NCBI RefSeq assembly: GCF_009498275.1
Contig: NZ_CP045643.1
Span: 1,178,001 to 1,242,000 of the forward strand
DNA: 64,000 nt
Direction of reading: 5' to 3'
Source of the DNA: Streptomyces fagopyri
GTDB taxonomy: Bacteria; Actinomycetota; Actinomycetes; Streptomycetales; Streptomycetaceae
Part shown: one piece after another, positions 12,313-31,537 of the stretch
How the letters are laid out: each line of letters begins with the position of its first letter
Numbering within the stretch: position 1 is the stretch's first letter
The notes under the pieces: model-generated
Told to the model about the DNA's origin: nothing
Seen by the model: the letters and a program-made list of their open reading frames with translations, nothing else
Database searches by the model: none
Made by a program: the position numbers and the translations under genes

Positions 12313-14757
12313 TCAGTCCAGGAGCACCTCGCTCCACACCTGCTTGCCGCCGCTGACCGGCAGGCTCCCCCAGGCCGCCGACATGGCCTCGACCAGGAGG
12401 ATGCCGCGGCCGCCGGTGGCCTCCCAGCCGATGCTGGTGGGCTTGATGGGCGTACGGGGTGAGGAGTCGGCGACGGCGATGCGCAGGAGCCGGTTGATGA
12501 GGGTGAGATCGAGTCTGACCTGGCCGCCGGTGTGGACGAGGGCGTTGGTGACGAGTTCGGAGACGACGAGGAGCGCGGTGTCCATGCTCTCGTCGGTCAC
12601 GCCCCAGGACCGCAGCGTGCGCCGGGTGAACCGGCGTGCGTGCCGGACCGCCTCGGGGACACGCCAGATCGTCCAGCTCTCCCGCAGCGGGCGCAGCGAC
12701 ATGCCGTCGTAGCGCATCAGGAGGAGAGCGACGTCGTCGCTGCGGTTGGCGCCCGTGAGCAGTCTGTCTGCGACCATCCCGAGATGCGCGGGGTCGGCCG
12801 CGGCCAGCTCACCGGCCAGCCTGTTCAGTCCGTCCTCGATGTCGACCTCGGCGGACTCGACGAGCCCGTCCGTGGTCAGGGCGACGACCGTGCCGAGCCG
12901 CAGCCGGAGCGGGGTCATCGGGAACTCGGCCTGGGTGACGACGCCGAGCGGAGGTCCGCCGTCGGAGTCGGGGACCTCGGTGCTGCCGTCCGGGTGACGC
13001 AGCACCGGCGGATGGTGCCCGGCGCGTACGCACCACGCGGAGCCCTCCTCCATGTCGAGGTCGACATAGCAGCAGGTGACGAAGAGGTCGGTCTCCAGGT
13101 CCATGAGGAGCCGGTTGGCGCGCGAGACGACGACGTCGGGCGGGTGGCCCTCGACGGCATAGGCGCGAAGGGCCGTGCGCATCTGGCCCATGAGGGTCGC
13201 GGCCTGGGCGTTGTGGCCCTGGACGTCGCCGATGACGAGGGCGACGTGGTTCTCGGGCAGCGGGATCACGTCGTACCAGTCGCCGCCGACCTCCAGGCCC
13301 GCCGTGGTGGGCAGGTAGCGGGCGACGGCGACCGCGCCGGGGAGCCTGGGCAGCCGGCGGGGCAGCAGGGAGCGCTGGAGCGTGGTGACCAGTTCGTGTT
13401 CGGCGTCGAAGGAGCGGGCGCGGGTGAGTGCCTGGCCCGCGAGGCCCGCGGACGCGGTGAGCAGGGCGCGCTCGTCGGGGCCGAAGTCGTGCGGGGCGTC
13501 CCAGCCGATCAGACAGGCGCCGGCCATGTGTCCGCCGGCGGGCAGCGGCAGGATGGCGAGGCCGCCGGGGCCGACGTCGGCGAGCGCGGGTTCCAGCGGG
13601 GATCCGGCGGGCCAGACGGCCGGGCGTCCCTCACTGAGGGCCGCCGCGAGTGTCGGCATGGCGCGTACGGGCGCGTCGGGCCACTCCGAACGCCATTCGG
13701 AGCGCCACAGTTCCGGCCAGGCGGACGGTTCGGGCGGATCGAGGACGGTGACGACGAGGCGGTCGCCCTCCACCTCGGCGAGGGCGATCCGGTCGGCCCG
13801 CAGGGGCCGTCGCAGCGCGGCCACGACGGCCCGCCCCACGTCCCGGACGGTGCCCGCGGTGGCGAGGGCCGCGGCCAGCCGCTGTACGCGGGCCACGTCG
13901 CTGACGCCGGAACGGAGCTTCGAGGCGTCGGCGACCGTGCCGACCAGGCGGGCCGGGCGGCCGTCTCCTCCCGGCACCATGCGGCCGCGCAGCCGCAGCC
14001 ACTTCGGTCGGCCGGAGGGCTGGGTGATGCGGAACTCCAGCTCGCGTTCCCCGATGGACATGTGGTCCGCCTCGACCACGGACATCAGTGTCGGCAGGTC
14101 CTCGGGGACGGTGAGGGCCAGCAGCGTCTCGACCTTGCCGTCGAACTCGGCCGGATCCAGGCCGAACAGCTCCAGCATCTCGTCGTCGACCTCGACGTGC
14201 CCGGTGTCCATGGCGAGGTCGAAGGCGCTGGCGGCCAGGGCACCGGGGGCCGTCCCCGAGCCGGGCGCCGGGCAGACGGCGGCCTCGGCGACGAGGGCCA
14301 GACACTCCCTGTCCTCGGTGTCGAAGCCGCCGGGGTGCTCGCTGACCGCGACCAGGCATCCGGCGCCCTTCAGCGGCAGCACGGCCAGCCAGAAATCCTG
14401 GGACGGCAGCCGACGGGCTTCGGCACAACGGCCGATCTCCTCCGGGCCGAGCCACAGCGGACGGCCCGTACGGTGCGCGTCCACCGTGGGGGAACTGCCG
14501 GTGAGGACATAGCTGTCGCGCAGCCCGTAGAGCGTCCTGGGCACGCCCGCGGACTCGGCCAGGTGCAGTTCGCCGCCCTTCTTCGTCGGCGAGTACACCG
14601 CGACGACGGTCGCCCCGGCGAAAACGAGCGCCTGTTCGAGCACGCGACGGAGCCGTTCGCGCGGATCGAGGTCCGGCGTGGGGGTCTTCAGGGAGATTTC
14701 GGCACGCAACGTCCGCGTTCCGCGTTCCGCAGCGCGCTCACTGACCACGTCCGTCAT
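12313..14757 (-). CDS. Multidomain SpoIIE phosphatase with GAF, PAS and HATPase (RsbU/RsbW-like fusion)
   Basis: The 814-residue signalling protein has a GAF-like region at about 28-165, PAS at 185-285 (ELEFRITQPSGRPKWLRLRG), and a second GAF at about 295-440. A PP2C-type SpoIIE phosphatase follows at about 455-665 (metal motifs GGDWYDVI and VIGDVQGHNA, then TTDGLVES). The C-terminal GHKL ATPase at about 690-810 contains VVSELVTNALVHT and GRGILLVE. Family knowledge: the phosphatase dephosphorylates an STAS anti-anti-sigma factor, while the ATPase resembles anti-sigma kinases. ATG 14757 with GGAAG upstream is preferred over the more distal start at 14805. It is divergent from a second SpoIIE gene. 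No membrane segment is seen. Confidence 0.9.
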   Translation of the reverse strand: MTDVVSERAAERGTRTLRAEISLKTPTPDLDPRERLRRVLEQALVFAGATVVAVYSPTKKGGELHLAESAGVPRTLYGLRDSYVLTGSSPTVDAHRTGRPLWLGPEEIGRCAEARRLPSQDFWLAVLPLKGAGCLVAVSEHPGGFDTEDRECLALVAEAAVCPAPGSGTAPGALAASAFDLAMDTGHVEVDDEMLELFGLDPAEFDGKVETLLALTVPEDLPTLMSVVEADHMSIGERELEFRITQPSGRPKWLRLRGRMVPGGDGRPARLVGTVADASKLRSGVSDVARVQRLAAALATAGTVRDVGRAVVAALRRPLRADRIALAEVEGDRLVVTVLDPPEPSAWPELWRSEWRSEWPDAPVRAMPTLAAALSEGRPAVWPAGSPLEPALADVGPGGLAILPLPAGGHMAGACLIGWDAPHDFGPDERALLTASAGLAGQALTRARSFDAEHELVTTLQRSLLPRRLPRLPGAVAVARYLPTTAGLEVGGDWYDVIPLPENHVALVIGDVQGHNAQAATLMGQMRTALRAYAVEGHPPDVVVSRANRLLMDLETDLFVTCCYVDLDMEEGSAWCVRAGHHPPVLRHPDGSTEVPDSDGGPPLGVVTQAEFPMTPLRLRLGTVVALTTDGLVESAEVDIEDGLNRLAGELAAADPAHLGMVADRLLTGANRSDDVALLLMRYDGMSLRPLRESWTIWRVPEAVRHARRFTRRTLRSWGVTDESMDTALLVVSELVTNALVHTGGQVRLDLTLINRLLRIAVADSSPRTPIKPTSIGWEATGGRGILLVEAMSAAWGSLPVSGGKQVWSEVLLD

Positions 14758-15127
14758 TACAGCGCTTCCGGAGCCCCCGCGCAGCCCCTGTGACCGTTCC
14801 GGCACCGGCGGGCCTGCGGTGGAGCCCGGAAGCCGTACGGGATGCCGCGCGTGGCGCTCGCCGTGCGGCGGGAGCCGCCAAGGGGGAGCCTTAGATCATG
14901 TCCGACCCTGCGTGCCGGACCGGCGGAGGCCGCTCGGCGCGGTGCGTCGCAAGCGCGAAGGGTCACCCGTCCGCGACGTGTACGCCGTATACACCGCGTA
15001 CGCCGTGTATACGGGTGATCCGGCCACGCGGCGAGGGTGCGTGCCGGGCGCCGGCCGCCCGGCGGAAAGGGCCGGACACGACCTGGCCCCGGTAGCCATG
15101 GCGCGGCCCTGCGAGGAGGTGGTCGGC
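14758..15127. other. Divergent promoter region between two SpoIIE phosphatase genes
   Basis: This 370-bp region separates two oppositely transcribed regulators. Its centre (14963-15018) is crowded with GTATAC/GTACGCC words, including a perfect 10-bp inverted repeat with a 10-bp spacer and an outer 8-bp inverted repeat (TCACCCGT 14963-14970 with ACGGGTGA 15011-15018). That arrangement suits a shared operator. An in-frame extension of the right-hand gene through this region gives repetitive peptide (AVYTAYAVYTG) and is unlikely to be translated. Confidence 0.5.
14985..15014. promoter_or_regulatory. Perfect 10-bp inverted repeat, candidate operator
   Basis: CCGTATACAC (14985-14994) and GTGTATACGG (15005-15014) are exact reverse complements separated by CGCGTACGCC. 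The spacing between arm centres is 20 bp, about two helical turns, which favours a dimeric regulator binding one DNA face. It lies about 115 bp upstream of the GTG start of the right-hand SpoIIE gene and about 230 bp from the left-hand start. Confidence 0.6.
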
Positions 15128-17269
15128 GTGTCCGACTGGCGGGGATCCGTACAGGCACCGGCCGGCCCTCCCACCCGGGTCGGGCGGCCGCTGCTCTCGC
15201 TGACGCTGGCCTCGCTGGTGGACGAGGTGCACGCCCACTCGGGTGCGGTGTACCTGCTGGCGAGCGGCGAACCCGTGCTGGAGATGGCGGTGATGGCCGG
15301 TATGCCCCGCGCGTTCGCGGCACCCTGGGAACGGGTGGGGCTCAACGCTCCCATCCCGGTGGCCGTGGCGGTGCGCGAACGGCGGCTGGTCTGGGTCAGC
15401 GGCGGGGAGGAGATGGCCCGCCGCTTTCCCCGGATCGCCATGGTCCTGCCGTATCCCTTCGCGCTCGCCGCCCTGCCGGTGGCGACCTCGCGGACCACGT
15501 ACGGGGCCGTCTTCGTGACATGGCCCGGCTCTCACCCCCTGGAACTCGCCGAACGGGAGCGCGACCACCTCGTCGCGGCCTGCGACCGGCTCGCGCTGCG
15601 CCTGGAGCGGGCGGCGGCGGAGCACCGTACGGTCCGCCCGGAACCCGATCTGATCGCGCCGTCCCCCACACCGGCCCCCGGCACGCTCGGCAGCGTCGAG
15701 GCGGCGCGGATGGTGGCGCGGCTGCCGTACGGGCTGTGCGCGCTGGATCTGTACGGTCGGGTCAGTTACGCCAACCCCGCGACGGCCGAGATGCTCGGCA
15801 TGCCCGTCAGCGCTCTCCTGGGCACCCAGCTGTGGGCGTCGGTGCCCTGGCTCAACGATCCCGTCTACGAGGACCGTTACCGCGCCGCGCTGATCAGCCA
15901 GCACGTCACGTCGTTCGTCGCGCTGCGGCCGCCCTGCGACTGGCTGTCGTTCCGCTTCTATCCCAGTACGACCGGGCTGAGCGTGCGCATCTCCCCGGCC
16001 AGGGCGGTCGCACAGATGAACCGCTCGGGGTCGCAGCGCGAGGACGCGCCCCGCCTGGTGACCATCTCCCATGTACTGAGCCTCGCCGGCGCGCTCACCC
16101 AGGCGGCGGGCGTGCAGGACGTGGTGCAGCTGGTCGCGGACGAGATCGCGCCCGCCGTCGGCAGCAGGGCCCTGATCCTTCTCGGTTCACGGGCCGGCCG
16201 GCTGCACGTACTCGGCCACCGCGGGTACCCGGACACGCACACCGCGGAACACCTCGACGGGCTGCCGCTGAGCGCGCGGTCCCCCTGCACCCACGCCCTG
16301 AACACCGGGGTGCCGGCCTTCTTCGACTCACGCGCGGAGGTGGAGCGCCTGTATCCGTCCCGGGAGGCGACGTCCGACGGGATGGCCGCGTGGGCGTACC
16401 TGCCGCTGATCGCATCCGGACGTCCGCTGGGCACCTGCGTCCTCGCCTACGCGGAGCCGCACGCCTTCCCGACCGACGAGCGGGCGGTGCTGACGAGTCT
16501 GAGCGGGCTCGTCGCGCAGGCGCTGGAACGGGCGCTGCTCTACGACACCAAACTCCAGCTGGCGCACGGTCTGCAGGCCGCGCTGCTGCCGCACACCCTG
16601 CCGTCGCTGCCCTCCGTCGAGGCGGCCGCACGCTATCTGCCGGCCACCCAGGGCATGGAGATCGGCGGCGACTTCTACGACCTGGTGCCCTCGCACGGTC
16701 TGGCCTCGGCGGTCATCGGCGACGTCCAGGGCCACAACGTGACCGCGGCGGCCCTGATGGGTCAGGTACGGACCGCCGTCCGCGCGTACACCACCGTCGG
16801 CCAGCCGCCGGAGGAGGTGATGCGCAGCACCAACCGGCTGCTGATCGACCTGGGCACCGACCTTTTCGCGAGCTGCCTCTATCTGCGCATGGACCCCGAG
16901 CGCGAGGTCGCGGTCATGGCGCGCGCGGGTCATCCGCCCCCGCTGCTGCGGCGGCCGGACGGACGCGTGCGGGTGCTCGACCTGGCCGGTGGGCCGCTGC
17001 TCGGGATCGACGCGGACGCCACGTACCAGACGACCGAGGTCCCCCTGCTGCCCGGTTCGCTTCTCGTCCTCTACACCGACGGGCTGATCGAGTCCCCCGG
17101 TGTGGACATCGAGGACGCCCTGGCCGACCTCGGGCGGCGCCTCGGCGAGGCCCCCGAGCAGCCGCTCGACGAGCTGGCCGACAGCCTGGTGCGGCAGAGC
17201 GGGGCGCTGACGCAGGCCCGGCTCGACGACGTGGCGCTGCTCCTGCTGCGGGCACGCGCGCACGCGTGA
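15128..17269 (+). CDS. SpoIIE family phosphatase with GAF and PAS sensors
   Basis: The 713-residue protein has GAF-like input at about 20-165, PAS at about 190-290 (YGLCALDLYGRVSYANPATA), GAF at about 315-480 (DVVQLVADEIAPAVGSRAL) and a SpoIIE/PP2C catalytic domain at about 490-710 (EIGGDFYDL, VIGDVQGHNVT, YTDGLIESPGVDIEDAL). It lacks the GHKL ATPase found in the divergent neighbour. The start is decided by GAGGAGGT at 15113-15120, seven bases before GTG 15128; longer in-frame starts have no such signal. It presumably dephosphorylates STAS-domain antagonists in stress or development signalling. The two neighbours share architecture and are likely old paralogues. Confidence 0.9.
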   Translation: MSDWRGSVQAPAGPPTRVGRPLLSLTLASLVDEVHAHSGAVYLLASGEPVLEMAVMAGMPRAFAAPWERVGLNAPIPVAVAVRERRLVWVSGGEEMARRFPRIAMVLPYPFALAALPVATSRTTYGAVFVTWPGSHPLELAERERDHLVAACDRLALRLERAAAEHRTVRPEPDLIAPSPTPAPGTLGSVEAARMVARLPYGLCALDLYGRVSYANPATAEMLGMPVSALLGTQLWASVPWLNDPVYEDRYRAALISQHVTSFVALRPPCDWLSFRFYPSTTGLSVRISPARAVAQMNRSGSQREDAPRLVTISHVLSLAGALTQAAGVQDVVQLVADEIAPAVGSRALILLGSRAGRLHVLGHRGYPDTHTAEHLDGLPLSARSPCTHALNTGVPAFFDSRAEVERLYPSREATSDGMAAWAYLPLIASGRPLGTCVLAYAEPHAFPTDERAVLTSLSGLVAQALERALLYDTKLQLAHGLQAALLPHTLPSLPSVEAAARYLPATQGMEIGGDFYDLVPSHGLASAVIGDVQGHNVTAAALMGQVRTAVRAYTTVGQPPEEVMRSTNRLLIDLGTDLFASCLYLRMDPEREVAVMARAGHPPPLLRRPDGRVRVLDLAGGPLLGIDADATYQTTEVPLLPGSLLVLYTDGLIESPGVDIEDALADLGRRLGEAPEQPLDELADSLVRQSGALTQARLDDVALLLLRARAHA

Positions 17270-17583: not shown

Positions 17584-18903
17584 TCACCCGTTGGAGCTCA
17601 CCATTCCGGAACCGTCGTCCGCGCCGGTGCCGGACTGGTCGGCGCCCGCGGCACCCGACTGGTCACCGCCGGCCCCCGACTGGTCGCCCGCGCCCGACTG
17701 GTCACCGGCCGCCGGGTCGCTCGCCGCGGGGTCGCTGGGCTCGGCGCCGGCCGTGGCGCTCGCGTCGCCCGCGCCGCCGGCACCCGCGCCGTCACCCGTC
17801 CCGAGCGTCGCGCCGGTCGCCGTGAGCGCGGTCGTCACCGGCTGGAAGAACGTCTCGCCGCCGACCGTGCAGTCGCCGCTGCCGCCCGATGTCAGGCCTA
17901 TCGCGCTGCCGTCCTGGGTGAAGAGCGAACCGCCGCTGTCGCCGGGCTCGGCGCACACGTCGGTCTGGATGAGTCCGGTGACCGTGCCCTCGGGATAGTT
18001 CACCGTGGCGTCGAGTCCGGTGACGTTGCCGTCGTTGAGTCCGGTGGTGCTGCCCATCCGGAAGACCTGCTGGCCCACGGCCGCGTCGGCGGCCTGGTTG
18101 ATGGCGACGGTCTGACCGTTGCCGACGTTGACCACACTGTTGGCCTGTGTGTTCGGGTCGTCGTACTTGACGAGCGAGAAGTCGCCGTCACCGGGGAAGG
18201 TGGCCTGGTCGACGGTGGCGATCGGGGCACCGTCCTGCGCGTCCGACCACTGCTTGGCCGCGACTCCGCAGTGCCCCGCGGTCAGGAACGCGGGACTGCC
18301 GTCGCTCGCGGTGACGTTGAACCCCAGCGAACAGCGGGCTCCGCCGCCGAAGATGGCGTCGCCGCCGTCCACGAACGTCTTGAAGGTGCCCGCGGACTTC
18401 TTCACGGTGGCCATGCCGGAACCCAGCGAGTCGACGGTCGACGTCAGCTTGTTCCAGTTCGCACCTGTGACTGTACTGTCGGCGATGACCCGGAGTTCGT
18501 TGGTCCTGGGGTCGACGGACCAGGCGGTGCCGGGGATGGTGGCGTCGGTCCTCAGCGTCCGGGCGGCGGACTTGAGCGCGGCGAGGCTGTTGTCGACGCT
18601 GCGGGGAACGGCGCCGGCCTTCTTGACCGCGTCCACCACGTTGTTGTTGTCACCGACGACGTTGACGACGACCTGCTGCTTGGCGGCGTCGTAGTACGCG
18701 CCTCCGTAGGCCTCACCGAGCTGGGTGGCGAGGAGCGAGGCGAGGTCCGAGGCGTCCGCGGCCTTCAGCGTCTTGGGAGCGGCGTCCTTCGCGTCGGTCT
18801 GCGAGGCGTTGGCGTTGGGCAGCAGGAGCGCCGCCGCTCCGAGCGCCGCGACGCTTCCCGCGGCGATGGCGGCCTTGCGCTTGGGAATCCTTTTGTGACT
18901 CAA
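17584..18903 (-). CDS. Secreted S1 (alpha-lytic/streptogrisin-type) serine protease with DQSG-repeat tail
   Basis: The 439-residue precursor has a signal peptide (SHKRIPKRKAAIAAGSV), a pro-region at about 45-165 (alpha-lytic protease prodomain style, HH-free) and a chymotrypsin-fold catalytic domain at about 165-350. The catalytic triad is visible as His in TAGHCG, Asp in GDFSLVKYD and Ser in EPGDSGGSLF. A Gly/Ala/Ser/Asp-rich tail of about 85 residues includes four DQSG units. The start is TTG 18903, placed six bases after AGGAGGT; the ATG at 18936 lies upstream of that ribosome binding site. The low-complexity acidic tail is unusual for streptogrisins and may be a cell-wall spanner or disordered linker; no LPXTG motif is present. 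Confidence 0.92.
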   Translation of the reverse strand: MSHKRIPKRKAAIAAGSVAALGAAALLLPNANASQTDAKDAAPKTLKAADASDLASLLATQLGEAYGGAYYDAAKQQVVVNVVGDNNNVVDAVKKAGAVPRSVDNSLAALKSAARTLRTDATIPGTAWSVDPRTNELRVIADSTVTGANWNKLTSTVDSLGSGMATVKKSAGTFKTFVDGGDAIFGGGARCSLGFNVTASDGSPAFLTAGHCGVAAKQWSDAQDGAPIATVDQATFPGDGDFSLVKYDDPNTQANSVVNVGNGQTVAINQAADAAVGQQVFRMGSTTGLNDGNVTGLDATVNYPEGTVTGLIQTDVCAEPGDSGGSLFTQDGSAIGLTSGGSGDCTVGGETFFQPVTTALTATGATLGTGDGAGAGGAGDASATAGAEPSDPAASDPAAGDQSGAGDQSGAGGDQSGAAGADQSGTGADDGSGMVSSNG

Positions 18904-19088
18904 CTCTTGACCTCCTGGGGACGGGGTCGATGCCACCGTCCGGCGACTGACTGGGGGGCGCCTGGATGCCTGTTGATACGTGTGAGTCGCGGGGGTTGTT
19001 CAACTCCTCCTAAGAAAGGCAGGAGTCAGCCCGGCGAAAGGCATGGATGACGAGGTGACCGCGTCGTTCCTCCGGCCGCCGGGGAACA

Positions 19089-19511: not shown

Positions 19512-20011
19512 ACACCACCATCCGTGACGATCCTGTGACACTCCGTCGACGAACCGGACCGGAATCCTGGCTTCAGCGAATCTGCACATCGAATGCGCAG
19601 CCGCGTCACGGCGCGCGAGGGATCTGCACAGTCGTACGCCCCCACGCGCCGCCGGGAAGGGATTTTCCCTTGGGTCACCCGAGCGGCAAGGGTGGCGCCG
19701 AAACAATGCCGTGCAGCATGTGAAGAAGTGGCCGCAAAGACGTGCGCACGCCTGCACGGTTGAGCCGAAGCCCCGCTCAAGTTCCCAGGTGAGAGCCCTG
19801 GTTGATTGGATGCGTGCGCCGCGACCGTGCTTTGATCCGTGCACCGCGGAGGTCGCGGCACGCTTCCGGAGACGGGAGCCGCACGCTTCCGGAGACGGGA
19901 GCCGCACGGCTCCCGGAAACGGGGCTCGCACCCCCGCGGTGGCGGCCGTCATCTGTTCCCAGAGGGGGCCGCTCCCCCCTTATGAATATCCATACGAAGG
20001 GAAGTTCCCCC
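19512..20011. other. Upstream region of the peptide-export locus
   Basis: About 500 bp separate the thioesterase from the precursor peptide. It contains two exact 23-bp tandem repeats with a degenerate third copy (19858-19927), and a GC hairpin (AGGGGG 19963-19968 with CCCCCT 19975-19980) just before the first possible start. The 19700-19850 stretch is the least GC-rich and is the likeliest promoter area. No gene was supported. Confidence 0.5.
19858..19903. repeat. 23-bp tandem duplication upstream of the precursor peptide
   Basis: Two identical head-to-tail copies lie at 19858-19880 and 19881-19903, each starting GCACGCTTCCGGAGACGG. A third, diverged copy follows at 19904-19927. The repeat lies 85-155 bp upstream of the peptide start and could be a duplicated regulatory element or simple slippage. 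Confidence 0.85.
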
Positions 20012-20227
20012 ATGAACTCCACCCCCCAGGTTGCCACCGCCGAGATCTCGGACGCGGACCTCGACAACGTCTCCGGCGGCCTGTCGCTGAACGCCGTCGG
20101 CACCGTCACCGGCCTGGTCGACGGCGTTGCCCCGGTTTCCGGCATCGTGGGCACGGCCGTCGGCACCGTCGAGGGTGTGACCGGCCTGAACACCGCGCCG
20201 GTCACCGGCCTGGTCGCCGGTCTCTGA
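20012..20227 (+). CDS. Double-glycine leader peptide: glycine-zipper bacteriocin-like precursor
   Basis: This 71-residue precursor has a 23-residue leader ending ISDADLDNVSGG, the acidic double-glycine type recognised by C39 peptidases. The 48-residue core has 10 glycines spaced mostly four apart (GTVTGLVDG, GTAVGTVEG, GLVAG), giving repeated GxxxG packing motifs, and a repeated APV(S/T)G(I/L)V element. It has no Cys, Lys, Arg, His or aromatic residue, so lanthionine or thiazole chemistry on Cys is impossible; only Ser/Thr could be dehydrated. ATG 20012 is preferred because GAAGGGA sits nine bases upstream; an in-frame ATG at 19982 would add ten residues. The three export genes follow. Similar peptides are often labelled type A2 lantipeptide. 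Confidence 0.85.
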   Translation: MNSTPQVATAEISDADLDNVSGGLSLNAVGTVTGLVDGVAPVSGIVGTAVGTVEGVTGLNTAPVTGLVAGL

Positions 20228-20244
20228 CCGCGCCTCATCCCGCT

Positions 20245-20278
20245 GAGTCCCGGAACCACTCCCCCGGTTCCGGGGCTC
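20245..20278 (+). terminator. 13-bp hairpin between precursor and export genes (terminator or attenuator)
   Basis: GAGTCCCGGAACC (20245-20257) pairs with GGTTCCGGGGCTC (20266-20278), with one U-G wobble, around an 8-nt loop, 18 bp after the precursor stop. A partial terminator here would give more precursor than transporter mRNA, and the stem would protect the precursor transcript's 3' end. Confidence 0.7.
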
Positions 20279-20318
20279 TCGGATGCCGTAGATCTCTCCG
20301 ACAGGTGAGGGAAGTCCC

Positions 20319-21128
20319 GTGCAGTTCCGCCAACAGGCCCTCGCCAAGCTGCAGTCGACCGAAGAGCTCGACCTGCCGGTGCGCTTCGCCCGCCCCCAGG
20401 GCTGGCTCGTCCTGTCCGTGACAGTGGTCGTCATGGCGGCCGCCTCGGTCTGGGCCGTGACGGGCACGGTGGCCTCGACGGTCGGCGCCCCCGCCGTCCT
20501 CACGCACGCGCAGGGCAGTTACGTCCTGCAGAGTCCCGTCGCCGGCCAGGTCACCGCGGTCCTCGCCGAGGAGGGCGAACGGCTCGCCGCCGACGCCCCG
20601 GTGCTGAGGGTCCGTACCGCGCGAGGCGCGACGTCCGTCGTCCGTACCGTCGCCGCGGGCCGCGTCACCGCGCTCGCCGCCACCATCGGGGCCATCATCT
20701 CCACCGGCGCGAACATCGCCGCGGTGGAGAAGGTCGCGCACGCCGGCGACCCGCTCTACGCGACGGTGTACGTGCCCGCCGAGAGCGCCTCCACCATCCC
20801 CGCGGACGCGGCCGTCGACCTCACCGTCCAGTCGGTGCCGACCCAGCGGTACGGGGTGCTGCGCGGCCGGGTGAAGTCGGTCGGCCGGAGTGTGCAGACC
20901 CAGCAGCAGATCACTTCCTACCTCGGCGACGGCCAGCTCGGCGAGCAGTTCACCAAGAAGGGCAGGCCGGTGGCCGTCCTGGTCTCCCTCGACCGTTCGT
21001 CCCACACGAAGAGCGGCCTCAAGTGGTCCTCGGCGGACGGTCCTGCGTACCCGCTGACCTCCATGACCCTGGCCACGGGTTCGATCCGCCTGGCCGATCA
21101 GCGTCCCGTCGATTGGCTGCTGCCGTGA
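20319..21128 (+). CDS. NHLM-type bacteriocin secretion protein (HlyD-like membrane fusion protein)
   Basis: The 269-residue protein has a short cytoplasmic N-tail, one transmembrane helix at about 29-50 (LVLSVTVVVMAAASVWAV) and a lipoyl-like hairpin domain (SYVLQSPVAGQVTAVLAEEG at about 68-87). A beta-barrel segment runs to the C-terminus. This is the arrangement of the secretion protein in NHLM bacteriocin export systems, here in a Gram-positive host, where it must act as an extracytoplasmic adaptor. The start is GTG 20319 behind GTGAGGGAAG. It overlaps the C39-ABC gene by four bases (GTGA), so the export genes are translationally coupled. Confidence 0.88.
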   Translation: MQFRQQALAKLQSTEELDLPVRFARPQGWLVLSVTVVVMAAASVWAVTGTVASTVGAPAVLTHAQGSYVLQSPVAGQVTAVLAEEGERLAADAPVLRVRTARGATSVVRTVAAGRVTALAATIGAIISTGANIAAVEKVAHAGDPLYATVYVPAESASTIPADAAVDLTVQSVPTQRYGVLRGRVKSVGRSVQTQQQITSYLGDGQLGEQFTKKGRPVAVLVSLDRSSHTKSGLKWSSADGPAYPLTSMTLATGSIRLADQRPVDWLLP

Positions 21129-23347
21129 CCACCGCCCAGGACACCCGCGGCAGACGTCGCGCCGCGCCGCCGAAGCGCACGGTCCCCAGAAGCACACGCA
21201 AGACCGTCCGCACACCGACGGTGCTCCAGATGGAGGCCGTGGAGTGCGGCGCGGCCTCCCTCGCCATGGTGCTCGGCCACCACGGCCGGTACATCCCGCT
21301 GGAGGAACTCCGCATCGCCTGCGGCGTCTCCCGGGACGGCTCGCGCGCCAGCAACCTCCTGAAAGCGGCGCGCGGTTACGGCCTCACGGCCAAGGGCATG
21401 CAGATGGACACGGCCGCACTCGCCGAGGTCCGGGCGCCCGCGATCCTGTTCTGGGAGTTCAACCACTACGTCGTCTACGACGGCATGGGCCGCCGTTTCG
21501 GACGGCGCGGGGTGCACATCAACGACCCTGGCAAGGGCCGCCGTTTCGTGCCGATGGAGGACTTCGACACCAGCTTCACCGGCGTGGTGCTGGTCATGGA
21601 ACCGGGCCCCGACTTCCGTGCGGGCGGCCGCCGGCCCGGGGTCCTCGGTGCCATGCCTGCCCGGCTGCGCGGGACGTCGGGCACGATGCCCGCGGCCGTA
21701 CTGGCCAGCCTGCTGCTGGTCGCGGTCGGCGCCGCGGTGCCCGCTCTCAGCAGGACGTACATCGACACCTACCTGATCGGCGGTCAGACGTCGCTGCTCG
21801 GCGTGCTCTTCGCGTCGATGGGAGCCTGCGTCGCGCTGACCGTCCTGCTGACCTGGCTCCAGCAGGCGAACCTGCTGCACGGCCGGATCATCTCCTCGAC
21901 GCTCAGCAGCGCACGCTTCCTGCGCCATCTGCTGCGGCTGCCGGTCACCTTCTTCTCCCAGCGCAGCCCGGCCGACCTGGTGCAGCGGCTGCAGTCCAAC
22001 GACGCGGTGGCCGAGACCCTGGCCCGCGACCTCGCGGCGGCGGGCGTGGACGCGATCGTCGTGGTCCTCTACGCCGTCCTGCTCTACACCTACGATCCGC
22101 AGCTCACGGCCGTCGGTATCGGTGTCGCGCTGCTCAACGTGGTCGCGATGCGGGTGGTGATCCGGCTGCGCGCCACGCGTACGGCGAAACTGCGCGCGGA
22201 CAGCGCCCGGCTCACCAACACCGCTTACACCGGGCTCCAGTTGATCGAGACCATGAAGGCGACCGGTGGCGAGGACGGGTACTTCCGCAAGTGGGCCGGG
22301 CAGCACGCCACCACCCTGGAGGAACAGCAGCGCCTCGGTGTGCCGAGCGCCTGGCTGGGGGTGGTCGCGCCGACGCTCGCCACCCTCAACAGCGCGCTGA
22401 TCCTGTGGATCGGCGGCCTGCGGGCGATGGAGGGGCACATCTCGATCGGTCTGCTCGTGGCCTTCCAGGCGCTCGTCACCCGCTTCACCGCGCCGCTCAC
22501 CCGGCTCAACGGCGTGGCGGGCCGCATCCAGGACTTCGCCGCCGACGTGGCACGCCTCAAGGACGTCGAGAACTTCCAGGCCGACCCGCTCTACGCCCGC
22601 TCGGGCACCGGCGACTCCACCCGCAGGCTGCACGGCCATGTCGAGCTGGAGAACATCACGTTCGGCTACAGCCCGCTCGACAAACCGCTGCTCACGGGCT
22701 TCTCCCTGACCGTGGGTCCGGGCCGGCAGGTGGCGCTGGTGGGCGGCTCGGGCAGCGGCAAGTCGACGGTCTCCCGGCTGATCTCGGGCCTGTACACCCC
22801 TTGGGAGGGCACGATCCGCATCGACGGACAGCGCCTCGAGGACATCCCGCGCGGCGCGCTCGCGGCCTCCGTCTCCTTCGTCGACCAGGACGTCTTCCTC
22901 TTCGAGGGCACGGTCCGCGACAACGTGGCGCTGTGGGACCCGTCGATCCCGGACGACGCCGTCGTCACGGCGTTGCAGGACGCGGCCCTGTACGACGTCG
23001 TGGTGCGCCGTCCCGGTGGCATCCACAGCCGGGTCGAGCAGGACGGCCGCAACTTCTCCGGTGGCCAGCGCCAACGGCTGGAGATCGCGCGGGCGTTGGT
23101 GCGCAGGCCCAGCATCCTGGTCCTCGACGAGGTGACCAGCGCGCTGGACGCCGAGACCGAGCAGACCGTCATCGACAACCTGCGCAAGCGCGGCTGCGCC
23201 TGCGTGGTGATCGCGCACCGGCTCAGCACCGTGCGCGACAGCGACGAGATCGTGGTGCTCCAGCACGGCACGATCGTGGAACGCGGGCGGCACGACGCCC
23301 TGGTGGCGGCCGGCGGTCCGTACGCCGAGCTGGTCAGGGAGCGATGA
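21125..23347 (+). CDS. NHLM-type ABC transporter with C39 leader peptidase
   Basis: This 740-residue exporter has an N-terminal C39 peptidase: Cys41 in AVECGAASLAM, His114 in FNHYVVYDG and Asp134 in INDPGKG form the catalytic set. A six-helix transmembrane domain spans about 190-460. The ATPase domain spans about 500-740, with Walker A GGSGSGKST, signature FSGGQRQRLEIARAL and Walker B ILVLDEVTSALD. It should cut the precursor after Gly-Gly and pump out the core. GTG 21125 overlaps the secretion-protein stop (GTGA), and the next ABC gene begins one base after its own stop. All catalytic residues are intact, so the system looks functional. Confidence 0.93.
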   Translation: MTTAQDTRGRRRAAPPKRTVPRSTRKTVRTPTVLQMEAVECGAASLAMVLGHHGRYIPLEELRIACGVSRDGSRASNLLKAARGYGLTAKGMQMDTAALAEVRAPAILFWEFNHYVVYDGMGRRFGRRGVHINDPGKGRRFVPMEDFDTSFTGVVLVMEPGPDFRAGGRRPGVLGAMPARLRGTSGTMPAAVLASLLLVAVGAAVPALSRTYIDTYLIGGQTSLLGVLFASMGACVALTVLLTWLQQANLLHGRIISSTLSSARFLRHLLRLPVTFFSQRSPADLVQRLQSNDAVAETLARDLAAAGVDAIVVVLYAVLLYTYDPQLTAVGIGVALLNVVAMRVVIRLRATRTAKLRADSARLTNTAYTGLQLIETMKATGGEDGYFRKWAGQHATTLEEQQRLGVPSAWLGVVAPTLATLNSALILWIGGLRAMEGHISIGLLVAFQALVTRFTAPLTRLNGVAGRIQDFAADVARLKDVENFQADPLYARSGTGDSTRRLHGHVELENITFGYSPLDKPLLTGFSLTVGPGRQVALVGGSGSGKSTVSRLISGLYTPWEGTIRIDGQRLEDIPRGALAASVSFVDQDVFLFEGTVRDNVALWDPSIPDDAVVTALQDAALYDVVVRRPGGIHSRVEQDGRNFSGGQRQRLEIARALVRRPSILVLDEVTSALDAETEQTVIDNLRKRGCACVVIAHRLSTVRDSDEIVVLQHGTIVERGRHDALVAAGGPYAELVRER

Positions 23348-23348
23348 G

Positions 23349-26162
23349 ATGACGACGGTTCACGAGGGCGACGTCGTCCTCGGCGCGCTCGGCACCATGG
23401 GTACACCGGTCGACTGCGCCGGACTCAACCGCCTCGAACTGGAAGGGCCGCAGGTGCTGTGGCTGGTCGCCGCGGGTGCGCTCGACCTGTTCGCGGTGGA
23501 CGCCGCCCAGCAGGGCCACTGGCACCACCTCGGCCGCCTCGAAGCGGGCTCACTGCTGCTCGGCCCGGTCGCGGGTCCCCAGCACACCCTGGTGGGACGC
23601 CCGTTGCGGGACTGCGCGGTGCGCCGGATCGTGCTGCGCGAGCTGTACCAGCCGGTGCCCACCGAGACCTGGTCCTACGACGAGTACGGCAACCCCCAGC
23701 ACGTGCCGCCGACTTCGAGCCCGCTGGAGTACGCACTCGCCCTCGGCGTCGGCCGCAGCCTCTCCATCCTCTTCCAGGCTCCCACGGCCACGGAGAACGC
23801 GGCCGCGCTCACCGACGACGACGTCTTCTGGATGCAGGTTCCGCCGGGAAGCGTGCAGTACGGCTCGCTGTACGGGGCGGAGGCGGCGGCGGACCTGCTG
23901 ATGGACTCGGGTGTCTGGCAGGGCATGGTCGACCAGCAGTACCGGCTGCTGGCCACACTGGACCGCTGGATCGAGCAGTTGGAGGCCCGGCACGAGGACC
24001 GGACGGCGGCGGGCATCAAGGCGGGCGAGGCCGTCCGCGCCCAGGCCGACCGGACCCTGCTGGCGTCCATCGGCACTCCCTCGAAGCGTCCTACGCCGGC
24101 CGACACCGACGCCACCTACGCGGCCTGCGCGCTGGTCGCCCGCGCGTCCGGGATCGCGCTCGCCGAGCCGGCGCAGAGCGGCACGGAGAGCGACCGGCTC
24201 GACCCGGTGGAGCGGATCGCGCTGGCCTCCCGCGTCCGCAGCCGCGCGGTGCGCCTGGACGGGCACTGGTGGCGGGACGACATCGGTCCGCTGGTGGGCC
24301 GGCGTGCGGTGTCGGGCAGCCCGGTGGCACTGCTGTGGCGGCGCGGCGGCTACGTGGCCGTACAGCCGTCGTCCGGGCGGGAGACACCGGTCGAGAAGGC
24401 CAACGCGGCCGAGTTCGAGGCGCGGGCGGTGATGTTCTACCGGCCGCTGCCCGAGCGCCGGCTGAGCCCGTTGCGACTGGCGCGGTTCTGCCTCCAGGGC
24501 ACGGGCGGCGATCTGCGCAACCTCGCGGTCAGCGCTCTCGTCACCGTCGCGATCGGCGCCCTGGTTCCGATCGCCACCGGCAAGGTGCTCGGCGAGTACG
24601 TGCCGAAGGCCCAGCACGGACTCATCGTTCAGGTCTGCCTGGCGATCATGATCACCAGCGTGGTGTCGGCGGCGTTCATGCTGCTGCAGAACCTCACCCT
24701 GCTGCGCATGGAGGGCAGGATCGAGGCGACGCTCCAACCGGCGGTGTGGGACCGGCTGTTGCGGCTGCCGACGACGTTCTTCACGTCCCGCTCGACCGGT
24801 GAACTGGCCAGTGCGGCCATGGGCATCAGCGCGATCCGCCGCCTCCTCGCGGGCGTCGGCCCCACGCTCGCGCAGGCCGGCACGGTCGGCGCGATGAACC
24901 TGGGGCTGCTGCTCTGGTACAGCGTGCCCATGGCGCTGGCCGCGGTCGTCATGCTCGTCGTCATCGCCGCCGTGTTCCTGGGGCTCGGCCTGTGGCAGGT
25001 GCGATGGCAGCGCCGGCTGGTCGTGCTCGGCAACAAGCTGAACAACCAGGCGTTCCAGACCCTGCGCGGACTGCCCAAACTGCGGGTCGCGGCGGCGGAG
25101 AACTACGCGTACGCCGCCTGGGCGGGCGAGTTCGCGCGCAGCCGTGAACTCCAGCGGAAGGTCGGTCGCATCAAGAACCTCACCACGGTGCTCGGAGCGG
25201 TCTATCTGCCGCTCTGCTCCCTGCTGATGTTCATGCTGCTGGCCGGCCCGGCGAGCGGTTCGCTGTCGGCGGCGGACTTCCTCACCTTCAACACCTCGGT
25301 GACCATGCTGCTGACCTCGGTCACCCAGCTGACCGGCGCCTTCGTCTCGGCGGCGGCCGCGCTGCCGATGTTCGAGGAGATCAGGCCGGTGCTCGACGCC
25401 ACCCCGGAGGTCCGGGTGGCGAGCACGCGCCCCGGCGTGCTGTCCGGGTCCGTCGAGGCCCGGGGGCTCTCCTTCCGGTACGCCGAGGACGGCCCGCTCG
25501 TCCTCGACGACGTGTCGTTCGACATCCGGGCGGGTGAGTTCGTGGCGATCGTCGGGCCCAGCGGCTGCGGCAAGTCCACTCTGCTGAGGCTGCTGATCGG
25601 CTTCGACAAGCCGGTCTCGGGCAGTGTGCTGTACGACGGTCAGGACCTGGCGGCCCTCGACCGGTCCGCCGTACGCCGTCAGTGCGGTGTCGTGCTCCAG
25701 CACGCGCAGCCGTTCACCGGTTCCGTCCTCGACTGCATCTGCGGCACCGAGCCGTACACGCCCGAGGAGGCGATGGCGGCGGCCGAGATGGCGGGCCTGG
25801 CCGAGGACATCAGGCGGATGCCGATGGGGCTGCACACGATCGTCTCCGGCAGCGGCGCGGTCTCGGGCGGCCAGCGACAGCGCCTGATGATCGCCCAGGC
25901 GCTGATCCGCCGCCCGCGCATCCTCTTCTTCGACGAGGCCACCAGCGCCCTGGACAACGAGACCCAGCGCACGGTCATCGAGAGCACCCGCGCGCTCAAC
26001 GCCACCCGGGTCGTGATCGCGCACCGGCTGTCCACGGTCATGGACGCGGACCGTGTGATCGTGATGGAGGACGGCCGGGTCGCCGAGCAGGGGCCTCCGG
26101 CGCGGCTGCTCGCGGACAGGGACGGGCGGCTGCACGAGCTGGTGCGGCGGCAGTTGGCGTGA
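23349..26162 (+). CDS. NHLM-type ABC transporter, large ATP-binding subunit without peptidase
   Basis: The 937-residue protein has an N-terminal accessory region of about 390 residues that lacks the C39 Cys/His. It is probably a degenerate peptidase or cupin-like domain, as in the second NHLM ABC subunit. Transmembrane helices lie at about 395-660 and the ATPase at about 690-937, with GPSGCGKSTLL (Walker A), VSGGQRQRLMIAQAL (signature) and ILFFDEATSALDNE (Walker B). It probably pairs with the C39-bearing transporter as a heterodimer. It follows that gene after one base and is convergent with the SRPBCC gene across a 4-bp gap. Confidence 0.92.
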   Translation: MTTVHEGDVVLGALGTMGTPVDCAGLNRLELEGPQVLWLVAAGALDLFAVDAAQQGHWHHLGRLEAGSLLLGPVAGPQHTLVGRPLRDCAVRRIVLRELYQPVPTETWSYDEYGNPQHVPPTSSPLEYALALGVGRSLSILFQAPTATENAAALTDDDVFWMQVPPGSVQYGSLYGAEAAADLLMDSGVWQGMVDQQYRLLATLDRWIEQLEARHEDRTAAGIKAGEAVRAQADRTLLASIGTPSKRPTPADTDATYAACALVARASGIALAEPAQSGTESDRLDPVERIALASRVRSRAVRLDGHWWRDDIGPLVGRRAVSGSPVALLWRRGGYVAVQPSSGRETPVEKANAAEFEARAVMFYRPLPERRLSPLRLARFCLQGTGGDLRNLAVSALVTVAIGALVPIATGKVLGEYVPKAQHGLIVQVCLAIMITSVVSAAFMLLQNLTLLRMEGRIEATLQPAVWDRLLRLPTTFFTSRSTGELASAAMGISAIRRLLAGVGPTLAQAGTVGAMNLGLLLWYSVPMALAAVVMLVVIAAVFLGLGLWQVRWQRRLVVLGNKLNNQAFQTLRGLPKLRVAAAENYAYAAWAGEFARSRELQRKVGRIKNLTTVLGAVYLPLCSLLMFMLLAGPASGSLSAADFLTFNTSVTMLLTSVTQLTGAFVSAAAALPMFEEIRPVLDATPEVRVASTRPGVLSGSVEARGLSFRYAEDGPLVLDDVSFDIRAGEFVAIVGPSGCGKSTLLRLLIGFDKPVSGSVLYDGQDLAALDRSAVRRQCGVVLQHAQPFTGSVLDCICGTEPYTPEEAMAAAEMAGLAEDIRRMPMGLHTIVSGSGAVSGGQRQRLMIAQALIRRPRILFFDEATSALDNETQRTVIESTRALNATRVVIAHRLSTVMDADRVIVMEDGRVAEQGPPARLLADRDGRLHELVRRQLA

Positions 26163-30740: not shown

Positions 30741-31187
30741 TCAGAACGTGAAGACGGTCGTCCCGTAGGAGTTCTTCACGCACTCGTTCGCGAAGGTCCG
30801 TTCGTACGCGACCCGCTTGCCCTGCCAGACACCCGCGACCGTCACGACCACGGGATCGAACTGCTTCGTGCACAAGGCGCCGCCTCTGACCGACAGGGCG
30901 TCGAAGTCGCCTCCGGCTCCCCGGAGTTCGGCGCAGGCCTGGACGGCGGCGGGATGGGTGCCGGAGGCGGTCGGCGCGCAGTTCAGCGTGACCGCGCGTT
31001 CCGGTGTGGCGGTGTCGGCGCTCTGTCCGTGCCCCGTGGTGAGCACCAGGGCCGAGGGGGCGTACAGCCCGGCGGGGGCGAGGGCGGGGGCGTGGGCCGG
31101 GGTGGCGAGGGCGGACCCTCCGAGGGGCCCGCAGACGGCGGTGGCCGCGAGGGTGAGAGTCGCTGCCCAGCGCGCGGTGTTCGGCAT
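30741..31187 (-). CDS. SSI-family secreted serine protease inhibitor (Lys-Gln reactive site)
   Basis: The 148-residue precursor has a signal peptide of about 30 residues and a mature domain opening [14 protein letters not shown], the hallmark of Streptomyces subtilisin inhibitor proteins. Four Cys (LNCAP, ACAEL, LCTKQ, NECVK) can form the two conserved disulfides. The reactive loop reads CTKQFDP, giving Lys at P1 and Gln at P1', as in plasminostreptin, which predicts inhibition of trypsin- and plasmin-like as well as subtilisin-like proteases. ATG 31187 is chosen because GGAAGG lies nine bases upstream; an ATG at 31196 would abut that box. It may control the host's own extracellular proteases. 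Confidence 0.93.
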
Positions 31188-31537
31188 TGTGTGCATCCTT
31201 CCGCTCGGTTGAATGCGGCACCGGCTCGGTGTGTGTCGGTGCGGCGAGCGCGAGTCTGCCGAGTCCACACCGGAAACACACATCGACCCCACACGTTTCG
31301 GTAACTTTGAGTATTGAATCACTGGCGCGAAGTAACGAAGCTCGAACGTTCGAGCCCCACAACGGCACGGCCGTTGATCGCCCGGGGCACCTTCCTGGCC
31401 GGATTCACCCGGCTCCGCAATAGGCCTGAAACATTCCGCTCAGCGCTCCGCAGGGCCCCGCCCCGCCCTCTTCAGCCCACGGCGGACACCGCCCCGCATC
31501 CCTTGCGCATCCATCACGCCGGAGTAATCGTCATTAC
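31188..31537. other. Divergent intergenic region upstream of the SSI gene
   Basis: 350 bp. An unusually AT-rich stretch at 31297-31325 (GTAACTTTGAGTATTGAATC) is the likely SSI promoter region. A perfect 16-bp palindrome lies at 31340-31355. The remainder before the hypothetical gene at 31538 shows no further structure. Confidence 0.5.
31340..31355. promoter_or_regulatory. Perfect 16-bp palindrome GCTCGAACGTTCGAGC
   Basis: The sequence is self-complementary without mismatch or spacer and lies about 150 bp upstream of the SSI start, next to the AT-rich promoter-like stretch. It is a candidate binding site for a dimeric repressor; no regulator gene is adjacent. Confidence 0.5.

Follow-up and report, generated by a model that had tools for sequence, protein, structure and literature searches.

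A Cysteine-Free Streptomyces Peptide Adjoining an NHLM-Type Exporter and a Dispersed Family of Genes Sharing Its Leader

Introduction

Hydrophobic surface peptides secreted by Streptomyces include SapB (RamS), a lanthipeptide, and the chaplins, exported by Sec. Class II two-peptide bacteriocins combine a double-glycine leader, export by a C39 peptidase–ABC protein and GxxxG steps; bacteriocin cores change fast, and peptide pheromones also use double-glycine leader export. Here we consider a locus in a 64,000-nucleotide stretch (below, the window) of the single-contig 8.88-Mb genome of Streptomyces fagopyri (NZ_CP045643.1, positions 1,178,001 to 1,242,000), in which a double-glycine precursor gene is followed by genes for a membrane fusion protein (MFP), a C39 peptidase–ABC exporter (ABC1) and a second ABC permease/ATPase (ABC2).

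The locus is already known, being orthologous to SCO0753–0756 of S. coelicolor. No gene was more strongly over-expressed with Sco5282-D125G than SCO0753, which has 77 amino acids and no cysteines (Arroyo-Perez et al., 2019, PMC6629963); upon kinase activation SCO0753 was up by log2 6.3 and SCO0754–0756 by 4.25–4.4, with almost no expression in the null strain. The pertinent passages of that paper also report dispersed growth of the Sco5282/Sco5283-activated strain, name both SapB/RamS and the chaplins, call SCO0757 an exopolyphosphatase, and propose export of SCO0753 with a possible effect on the hyphal surface. SCO0753 is also up in an aor1 deletion, along with SapB cluster genes (PMC5733086), and Sco5283 is listed as OmpR type (PMC9739842). 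In passages on the precursor families NHLP and N11P, it is stated that these may sit far from modification or export genes (Haft et al., 2010, PMC2887384).

A sequence-only reading of the window had seen here a glycine-zipper peptide, perhaps secreted unmodified, with an NHLM export system. Its observation is confirmed and its interpretation partly supported; it had missed that the locus is published, where it is linked to a regulator and to morphology, and that the leader is common to unlinked genes.

The Four-Gene Locus

We compared 20 loci chosen across the identity range, the window locus included, and 80 named loci, the top 80 among 429 confirmed stretches and hence close relatives; one locus is common to both sets, leaving 99 distinct ones. 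The order precursor, MFP, ABC1, ABC2 is kept in 20/20 loci, and the last three genes of the window locus were matched in 19/19 others. All 80 named loci hold precursor, MFP and ABC1, but ABC2 runs into a contig end in two of them and is off the contig in one. The reading we favor, at a probability of roughly 0.6, is that the unmodified 48-residue core is cut and secreted by the adjoining NHLM exporter, likely onto the hyphal surface. Unmodified, non-lanthionine export is supported by the kept gene set, by the lack of Cys in the precursors of all 100 loci (82 distinct), and by the absence of LanM from 169 of the 218 genomes with the leader.

The export set described by the sequence-only reading is present (Table 1): both ABC proteins exceed their NHLM cut-offs, and alignment of the C39 domain with the solved double-glycine protease 6mpz_A shows that the Cys of ECGAAS, the His of FNHYVV and the Asp of INDPGKG, which we take to be catalytic, are kept. 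The precursor is separated by 91 bases from the MFP gene, which the C39-ABC gene overlaps by 4 bases. The MFP is short, its best stretch (residues 97–269) falling on positions 245–417 of the 421 in the TIGR03794 profile, and such a reduced adaptor would be in keeping with export through a single membrane. In ABC2, about 250 residues precede the TIGR03797 match.

A 71-residue double-glycine precursor is likewise present, but its start had been placed ten codons too early, at the in-frame ATG at 19982; GAAGGGAAG (19996–20004) lies directly 5' of the ATG at 20012, and 71 amino acids is the length of most homologues among those listed by a protein search. The leader ends in VSGG. No match to the NHLP/Nif11 leader models, presumably TIGR03793 and TIGR03798, was obtained; two NCBIfam matches of the precursor at E 0.1 are to other models. 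A FapA model match (18.1 vs 100 bits, E 0.0025) was read as a composition effect and set aside.

Table 1. Features of the S. fagopyri locus (positions counted within the window).
Feature	Positions	Strand	Details
Conserved upstream block TGTGAAGAAG...CGCCTGCAC, 5' of box	19719..19758	+	Possible activator site; consensus of 23 linked upstream regions
Bipartite promoter-like box	19801..19838	+	GTTGATTGGAT (19801–19811) and CGTGCTTTGATCC (19826–19838); putative promoter
Tandem 23-bp duplication	19855..19900	+	Presumed 5' part of transcript
Precursor, 71 aa	20012..20227	+	ATG 20012, stop 20225–20227; leader 1–23, core 24–71 (4375.0 Da average)
Hairpin, 13-bp stem, between precursor and MFP	20245..20278	+	Putative attenuator or mRNA-stability element
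Short MFP, HlyD type, 269 aa	20319..21128	+	PF13437; TIGR03794 142 bits
C39 peptidase–ABC exporter (ABC1)	21125..23347	+	TIGR03796 1014.7 bits (NCBIfam NHLM cut-off 853.3); PF03412; similar to 6mpz and 4ry2
Second ABC permease/ATPase (ABC2)	23349..26162	+	TIGR03797 892.2 bits (NCBIfam NHLM cut-off 709.4), residues 254–936

Composition and Conservation of the Core

The composition claimed for the window core was confirmed in the sequence: it has no Cys, Lys, Arg, His, Trp, Tyr or Phe and contains seven Thr and two Ser. The last six of the missing residues are also absent from all the cores of the 100 loci (cut after residue 23).

The seven Thr and two Ser could nevertheless serve a ribosomally synthesized and post-translationally modified peptide (RiPP) altered in trans by a distant enzyme, as the type A2 lantipeptide label implies. 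NCBI gives this name to many of the 120 homologues listed by the protein search (691 matches at E 0.01), a passage of PMC13047742 repeats it, and NHLP/N11P precursors distant from modification genes have been described (PMC2887384). We nonetheless find such a modification very improbable, as the core is Cys-free and LanM is not found in the S. fagopyri genome at E 1e-60; it is thus no class II (type A2) lanthipeptide by either feature, the genome-wide search having been for LanM and not for YcaO or radical SAM enzymes. At the same threshold LanM occurs in 49/218 leader genomes vs 30/77 others, and is therefore not positively associated with the leader; the difference has a Fisher P of 0.007, not corrected for kinship. 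Nor does the Pfam scan find a RiPP enzyme among the 11 neighboring genes (12.3–34.0 kb of the window), in keeping with the sequence-only reading. That reading had also said what would speak against it; in the homologues, no modification enzyme is consistently nearby, and the core is conserved outside the leader.

This conservation was assessed on 87 distinct 71-codon sequences, all close, in which core positions P41, V42, G44, T52, E54, G55, T57, G58, L59, P63, V64, L67, V68, and G70 are invariant. In the diverged alignment A1, invariance within the core is limited to L24, P41, V42, and G58, with G51, V53, E54, T57, L67, and G70 conserved at 90% or more. The five GxxxG steps from which a glycine zipper had been deduced are real in the window core, and when its residues are shuffled 0.95% of the permutations reach five, but they are not a family trait: five steps occur in 4 of the 87 sequences, four in 38, three in 37, and fewer in 8. 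Position 47 carries Gly in 16/87 and position 66 in 43/87; with these glycines so poorly kept, the five-step zipper is confined to few strains, and we rejected it for the family.

The poor conservation of the glycine steps bears on the possibility that the peptide is a class II-type bacteriocin, left unmodified, which would insert into target membranes by its GxxxG helices. The steps themselves and the double-glycine leader with C39-ABC export fit such a peptide, and the leaders of the unlinked genes described below show weak similarity, under the cut-off in every case, to TIGR03949 and TIGR01847. We still regard a bacteriocin as distinctly unlikely, since the window precursor matches none of the curated bacteriocin models at E 0.1 and is kept, at E 0.001, in 193 of 295 Streptomyces genomes, unlike bacteriocin cores. 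Moreover, comparison of neighbors in the 20 loci (frames of 70 aa or more, up to ~10 kb away, here and wherever conserved neighbors of the locus are meant) revealed no conserved immunity-type, partner-peptide or receptor gene beside the locus; for a class IIb bacteriocin, one operon would encode two peptides together with an immunity protein, whereas the four genes alone are conserved here. With the window locus as reference, the upstream S1 protease was matched in 12/19 other loci and the remaining neighbors in fewer, tracking relatedness; with five diverged loci as references, a single outside frame was matched in two others, at 35% identity.

The lack of a conserved receptor gene, together with the length and hydrophobicity of the core, also speaks against an extracellular signal that kin would sense. 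Double-glycine leader export is shared with peptide pheromones, and the unlinked genes and one diverged linked precursor weakly match the VP1 pheromone model, far below its cut-off; of the readings considered, we hold this one to be the least probable.

Co-occurrence of Leader and Exporter

The sequence-only reading had called for a check of co-occurrence. Leader model A2 (E 1e-4) matched 218 of the 295 Streptomyces genomes, TIGR03796 exceeded its cut-off in 218, and both were found together in 214. In three of the four leader-only genomes (G119, G180, G279) the exporter gene is split in two; the fourth genome (G001) is 79% complete. Among the four exporter-only genomes, ABC1 is diverged in G028, G038, and G188 (49–56% identity), and in G120 the exporter gene begins at the contig start. 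Searching with the window ABC1 (E 1e-120) yielded 221/295 genomes, i.e., the 218 and the three with split genes, so that no hidden split copies exist in leader-less genomes at this threshold. The leader is thus found in 217/221 exporter genomes vs 1/74 others. The presence of at least two leader matches (97/295 genomes) is restricted to the 221 genomes with the exporter (Fisher P 6e-16), which one of the 97 holds in two pieces; as the genomes are related, such P values overstate independence. The match counts per genome were transcribed by hand.

The two-piece C39-ABC genes (L185/L193 in G279, L189/L191 in G119, L190/L192 in G180) reflect decay or sequencing error, and the diverged NHLM ABC1 genes of leader-less genomes (L186 in G028, L187 in G188, L188 in G038) perhaps belong to a different Streptomyces NHLM system.

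Within the family, 70 of the 150 genomes, and eight of the 17 genera, gave a match to alignment A1. In a wider sample of the class (345 genomes, 126 genera), the leader was matched in 26 genomes, all of them Streptomyces, and hence in none beyond the family.

Unlinked Genes Sharing the Leader

The family-wide search also returned leader-only matches at other places of the same genomes. The first 20 places fetched comprised eight linked precursors of diverged relatives (in one, L145, the ABC2 match is split into pieces) and 12 orphans; the second 20, three linked precursors and 17 orphans, the extra matches inspected thus numbering 29. Neither MFP nor C39-ABC was found in the fetched flanks of the 12 first-batch orphans, three of which have generic ABC genes nearby; the flank 3' of the orphan is shorter than 5 kb in L142, L143 (1.2 kb), and L173. 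The 29 orphan cores have no Trp, and four have one Cys each. In the S. fagopyri genome itself there are no orphans beyond matches with E >1.

Such genes might be no more than duplicated promoters and leaders, inert and without a part as exported cargo. Duplication would be expected to leave leader and upstream box in common, as observed, and several orphan cores are unrelated. However, one core type (SPxxG...GPTA...QYHQ) recurs in 14 of the 17 second-batch orphans, which were chosen from the strongest matches, mostly in different neighborhoods. Compared by shared frames and by eye, only L172 and L181 of nine orphan loci displayed have a run of neighbors in common, and in the first batch four genes are common to L134 and L136, and two to L142 and L143. 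A search with one orphan of this type yielded 405 proteins at E 0.01, with 62–100% identity in the 120 listed, so that the core type is present in at least 120 database proteins. Finally, the 74 exporter-less genomes hold one leader match in all. We therefore judge inert duplication unlikely.

The second core type is found in solitary peptides of 67–74 aa (L164, L166, L169, L170, L172–L181; diverged in L170 and L180), among the listed matches of which most are named hypothetical and one a class IIb bacteriocin.

The Upstream Box and the Hairpin

The pattern [AG]TGNTTTGATY lies 58–185 bases 5' of the start of 23/31 linked and 18/29 orphan genes. It was picked after viewing the genes of these same 60 loci, in which it has 43 occurrences per 2.13 million positions, 41 of them ahead of these genes. 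By genus, it precedes 23/26 linked and 18/24 orphan genes of Streptomyces, and 0/5 and 0/5, respectively, in other genera. The 80 named loci, not used for finding the box, yet related, contain 63 occurrences, all 5' of the precursor. The pattern forms the 3' half of an element in two parts, the other half, GATTGGA, lying ~20 bases before it and being looser in orphans; TGNTTTGAT may be an extended −10. In the window the box-to-start distance is 185, vs mostly 137–143 in the named relatives.

We also considered the box as a wider regulator site in the S. fagopyri genome and rejected this. TGCTTTGATCC occurs there three times, one of the other copies lying 37 bases 5' of a 355-aa frame and the third near no convincing start; the GATTGGA half is present only at the precursor copy, and hence no further member was found in that genome.

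A stem of 10 bp or more, counting G-U pairs, occurs at most 90 bases 3' of the precursor in 97 of the 100 loci (99 distinct) vs 20 of 500 simple shuffles, and shows paired changes, e.g., AACC/GGTT to AGCC/GGCT. A sub-threshold Rfam match of the hairpin to mraW (21.1 of 50 bits, E 0.95) was taken as chance.

Neighboring Genes

According to Pfam, the 11 neighbors are two SpoIIE phosphatases, S1 protease, thioesterase, AHSA1, ArsR, MFS, PAP2/DAGK, SSI, cytosine permease, and one gene without a match; that next after the export set is AHSA1. The GAF/PAS-SpoIIE phosphatase frames, at 12313–14805 (−) and 14678–17269 (+), stand back to back with overlapping called starts. An alpha-lytic-type protease with a prodomain (17584–18936, −) and an SSI (subtilisin-inhibitor-like) gene (30741–31322, −) are 12 kb apart. 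A Ppx/GppA gene directly follows the set in S. tendae and S. coelicoflavus (L097, L110; PF02541) and, by eye, in S. parvulus and S. mutabilis (L089, L087).

Discussion

In the proposed mechanism, the Sco5282/Sco5283 system would relay an envelope-type signal to transcription, as published for the S. coelicolor orthologue, with the box as a promoter or activator site, and the hairpin likely raises precursor output above that of the exporter. The NHLM-type exporter would then remove the 23-residue leader and secrete the unmodified 48-residue core, which on the hyphal surface may alter envelope or aggregation properties. The same exporter might handle unlinked orphan precursors where genomes have them. 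We give even odds to the broader proposal of a genus-wide regulon, in which one box-switched NHLM exporter would handle both linked glycine-rich and changing unlinked unmodified peptides with the same leader and box, tuning the hyphal surface.

Several observations weigh against these proposals. The box is missing from 3/26 linked and 6/24 orphan Streptomyces genes, from 10/10 genes of other genera, and from 17 of the 80 named loci. In the 87 distinct coding sequences pN/pS is 0.49 for the core vs 0.30 for the leader, which indicates moderate constraint only, and AlphaFold2 models are poor, with a pLDDT of 59.4 (helices) for the linked family and 54.8 for the orphan family, too weak to speak for helix packing, self-assembly or pore formation. 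The MFP stays below the TIGR03794 cut-off (142 vs 156.2 bits), though this is its best-matching family. The core may be modified in trans by enzymes of types outside those searched for, and to our knowledge there is no mass-spectrometric sighting of the peptide. In the passages of PMC6629963 concerned, no SCO0753 mutant appears and the authors note that lower matB could explain the phenotype; the surface role thus rests on co-regulation.

These results free a peptide family of about two thirds of the sampled Streptomyces from a misleading type A2 lantipeptide label and tie it to a published morphology regulator. Leader and upstream box provide a search key for small peptides invisible to mining for modifying enzymes, and cargo that coats hyphae would bear on fermenter pelleting and aerial growth.

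With the NHLM systems that have NHLP/Nif11 precursors, which in passages of PMC2887384 may likewise be distant, the locus has both ABC families in common and, going by best match, that of the MFP. The Gly-Gly there is at average positions 83 and 70, in contrast to the 23-aa leader here, which moreover has no match to these family models and no modifying enzyme seen adjacent. Unlike SapB and the chaplins, the core is Cys-free and its gene adjoins a C39-ABC gene; unlike class II two-peptide bacteriocins (TIGR03949), the locus has no conserved partner peptide or immunity gene adjacent, and the window precursor matches no such model. With SCO0753–0756, it shares the same four genes in the same order, a hydrophobic Cys-free peptide and, in close relatives of S. 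coelicolor, the same next gene, gene order and the following exopolyphosphatase gene both pointing to orthology as judged on those relatives. PMC6629963 covers one S. coelicolor locus and mentions conservation in many Streptomyces, the orphans, the shared box and the hairpin not being among its passages; dispersed leader-sharing orphans in Streptomyces were not found described in the literature searched, subscription journals being mostly outside it. To judge from these sequence comparisons, what is new here is the conservation of the four genes and the core, the dispersed leader family and its tie to the exporter, the common box, and the hairpin.

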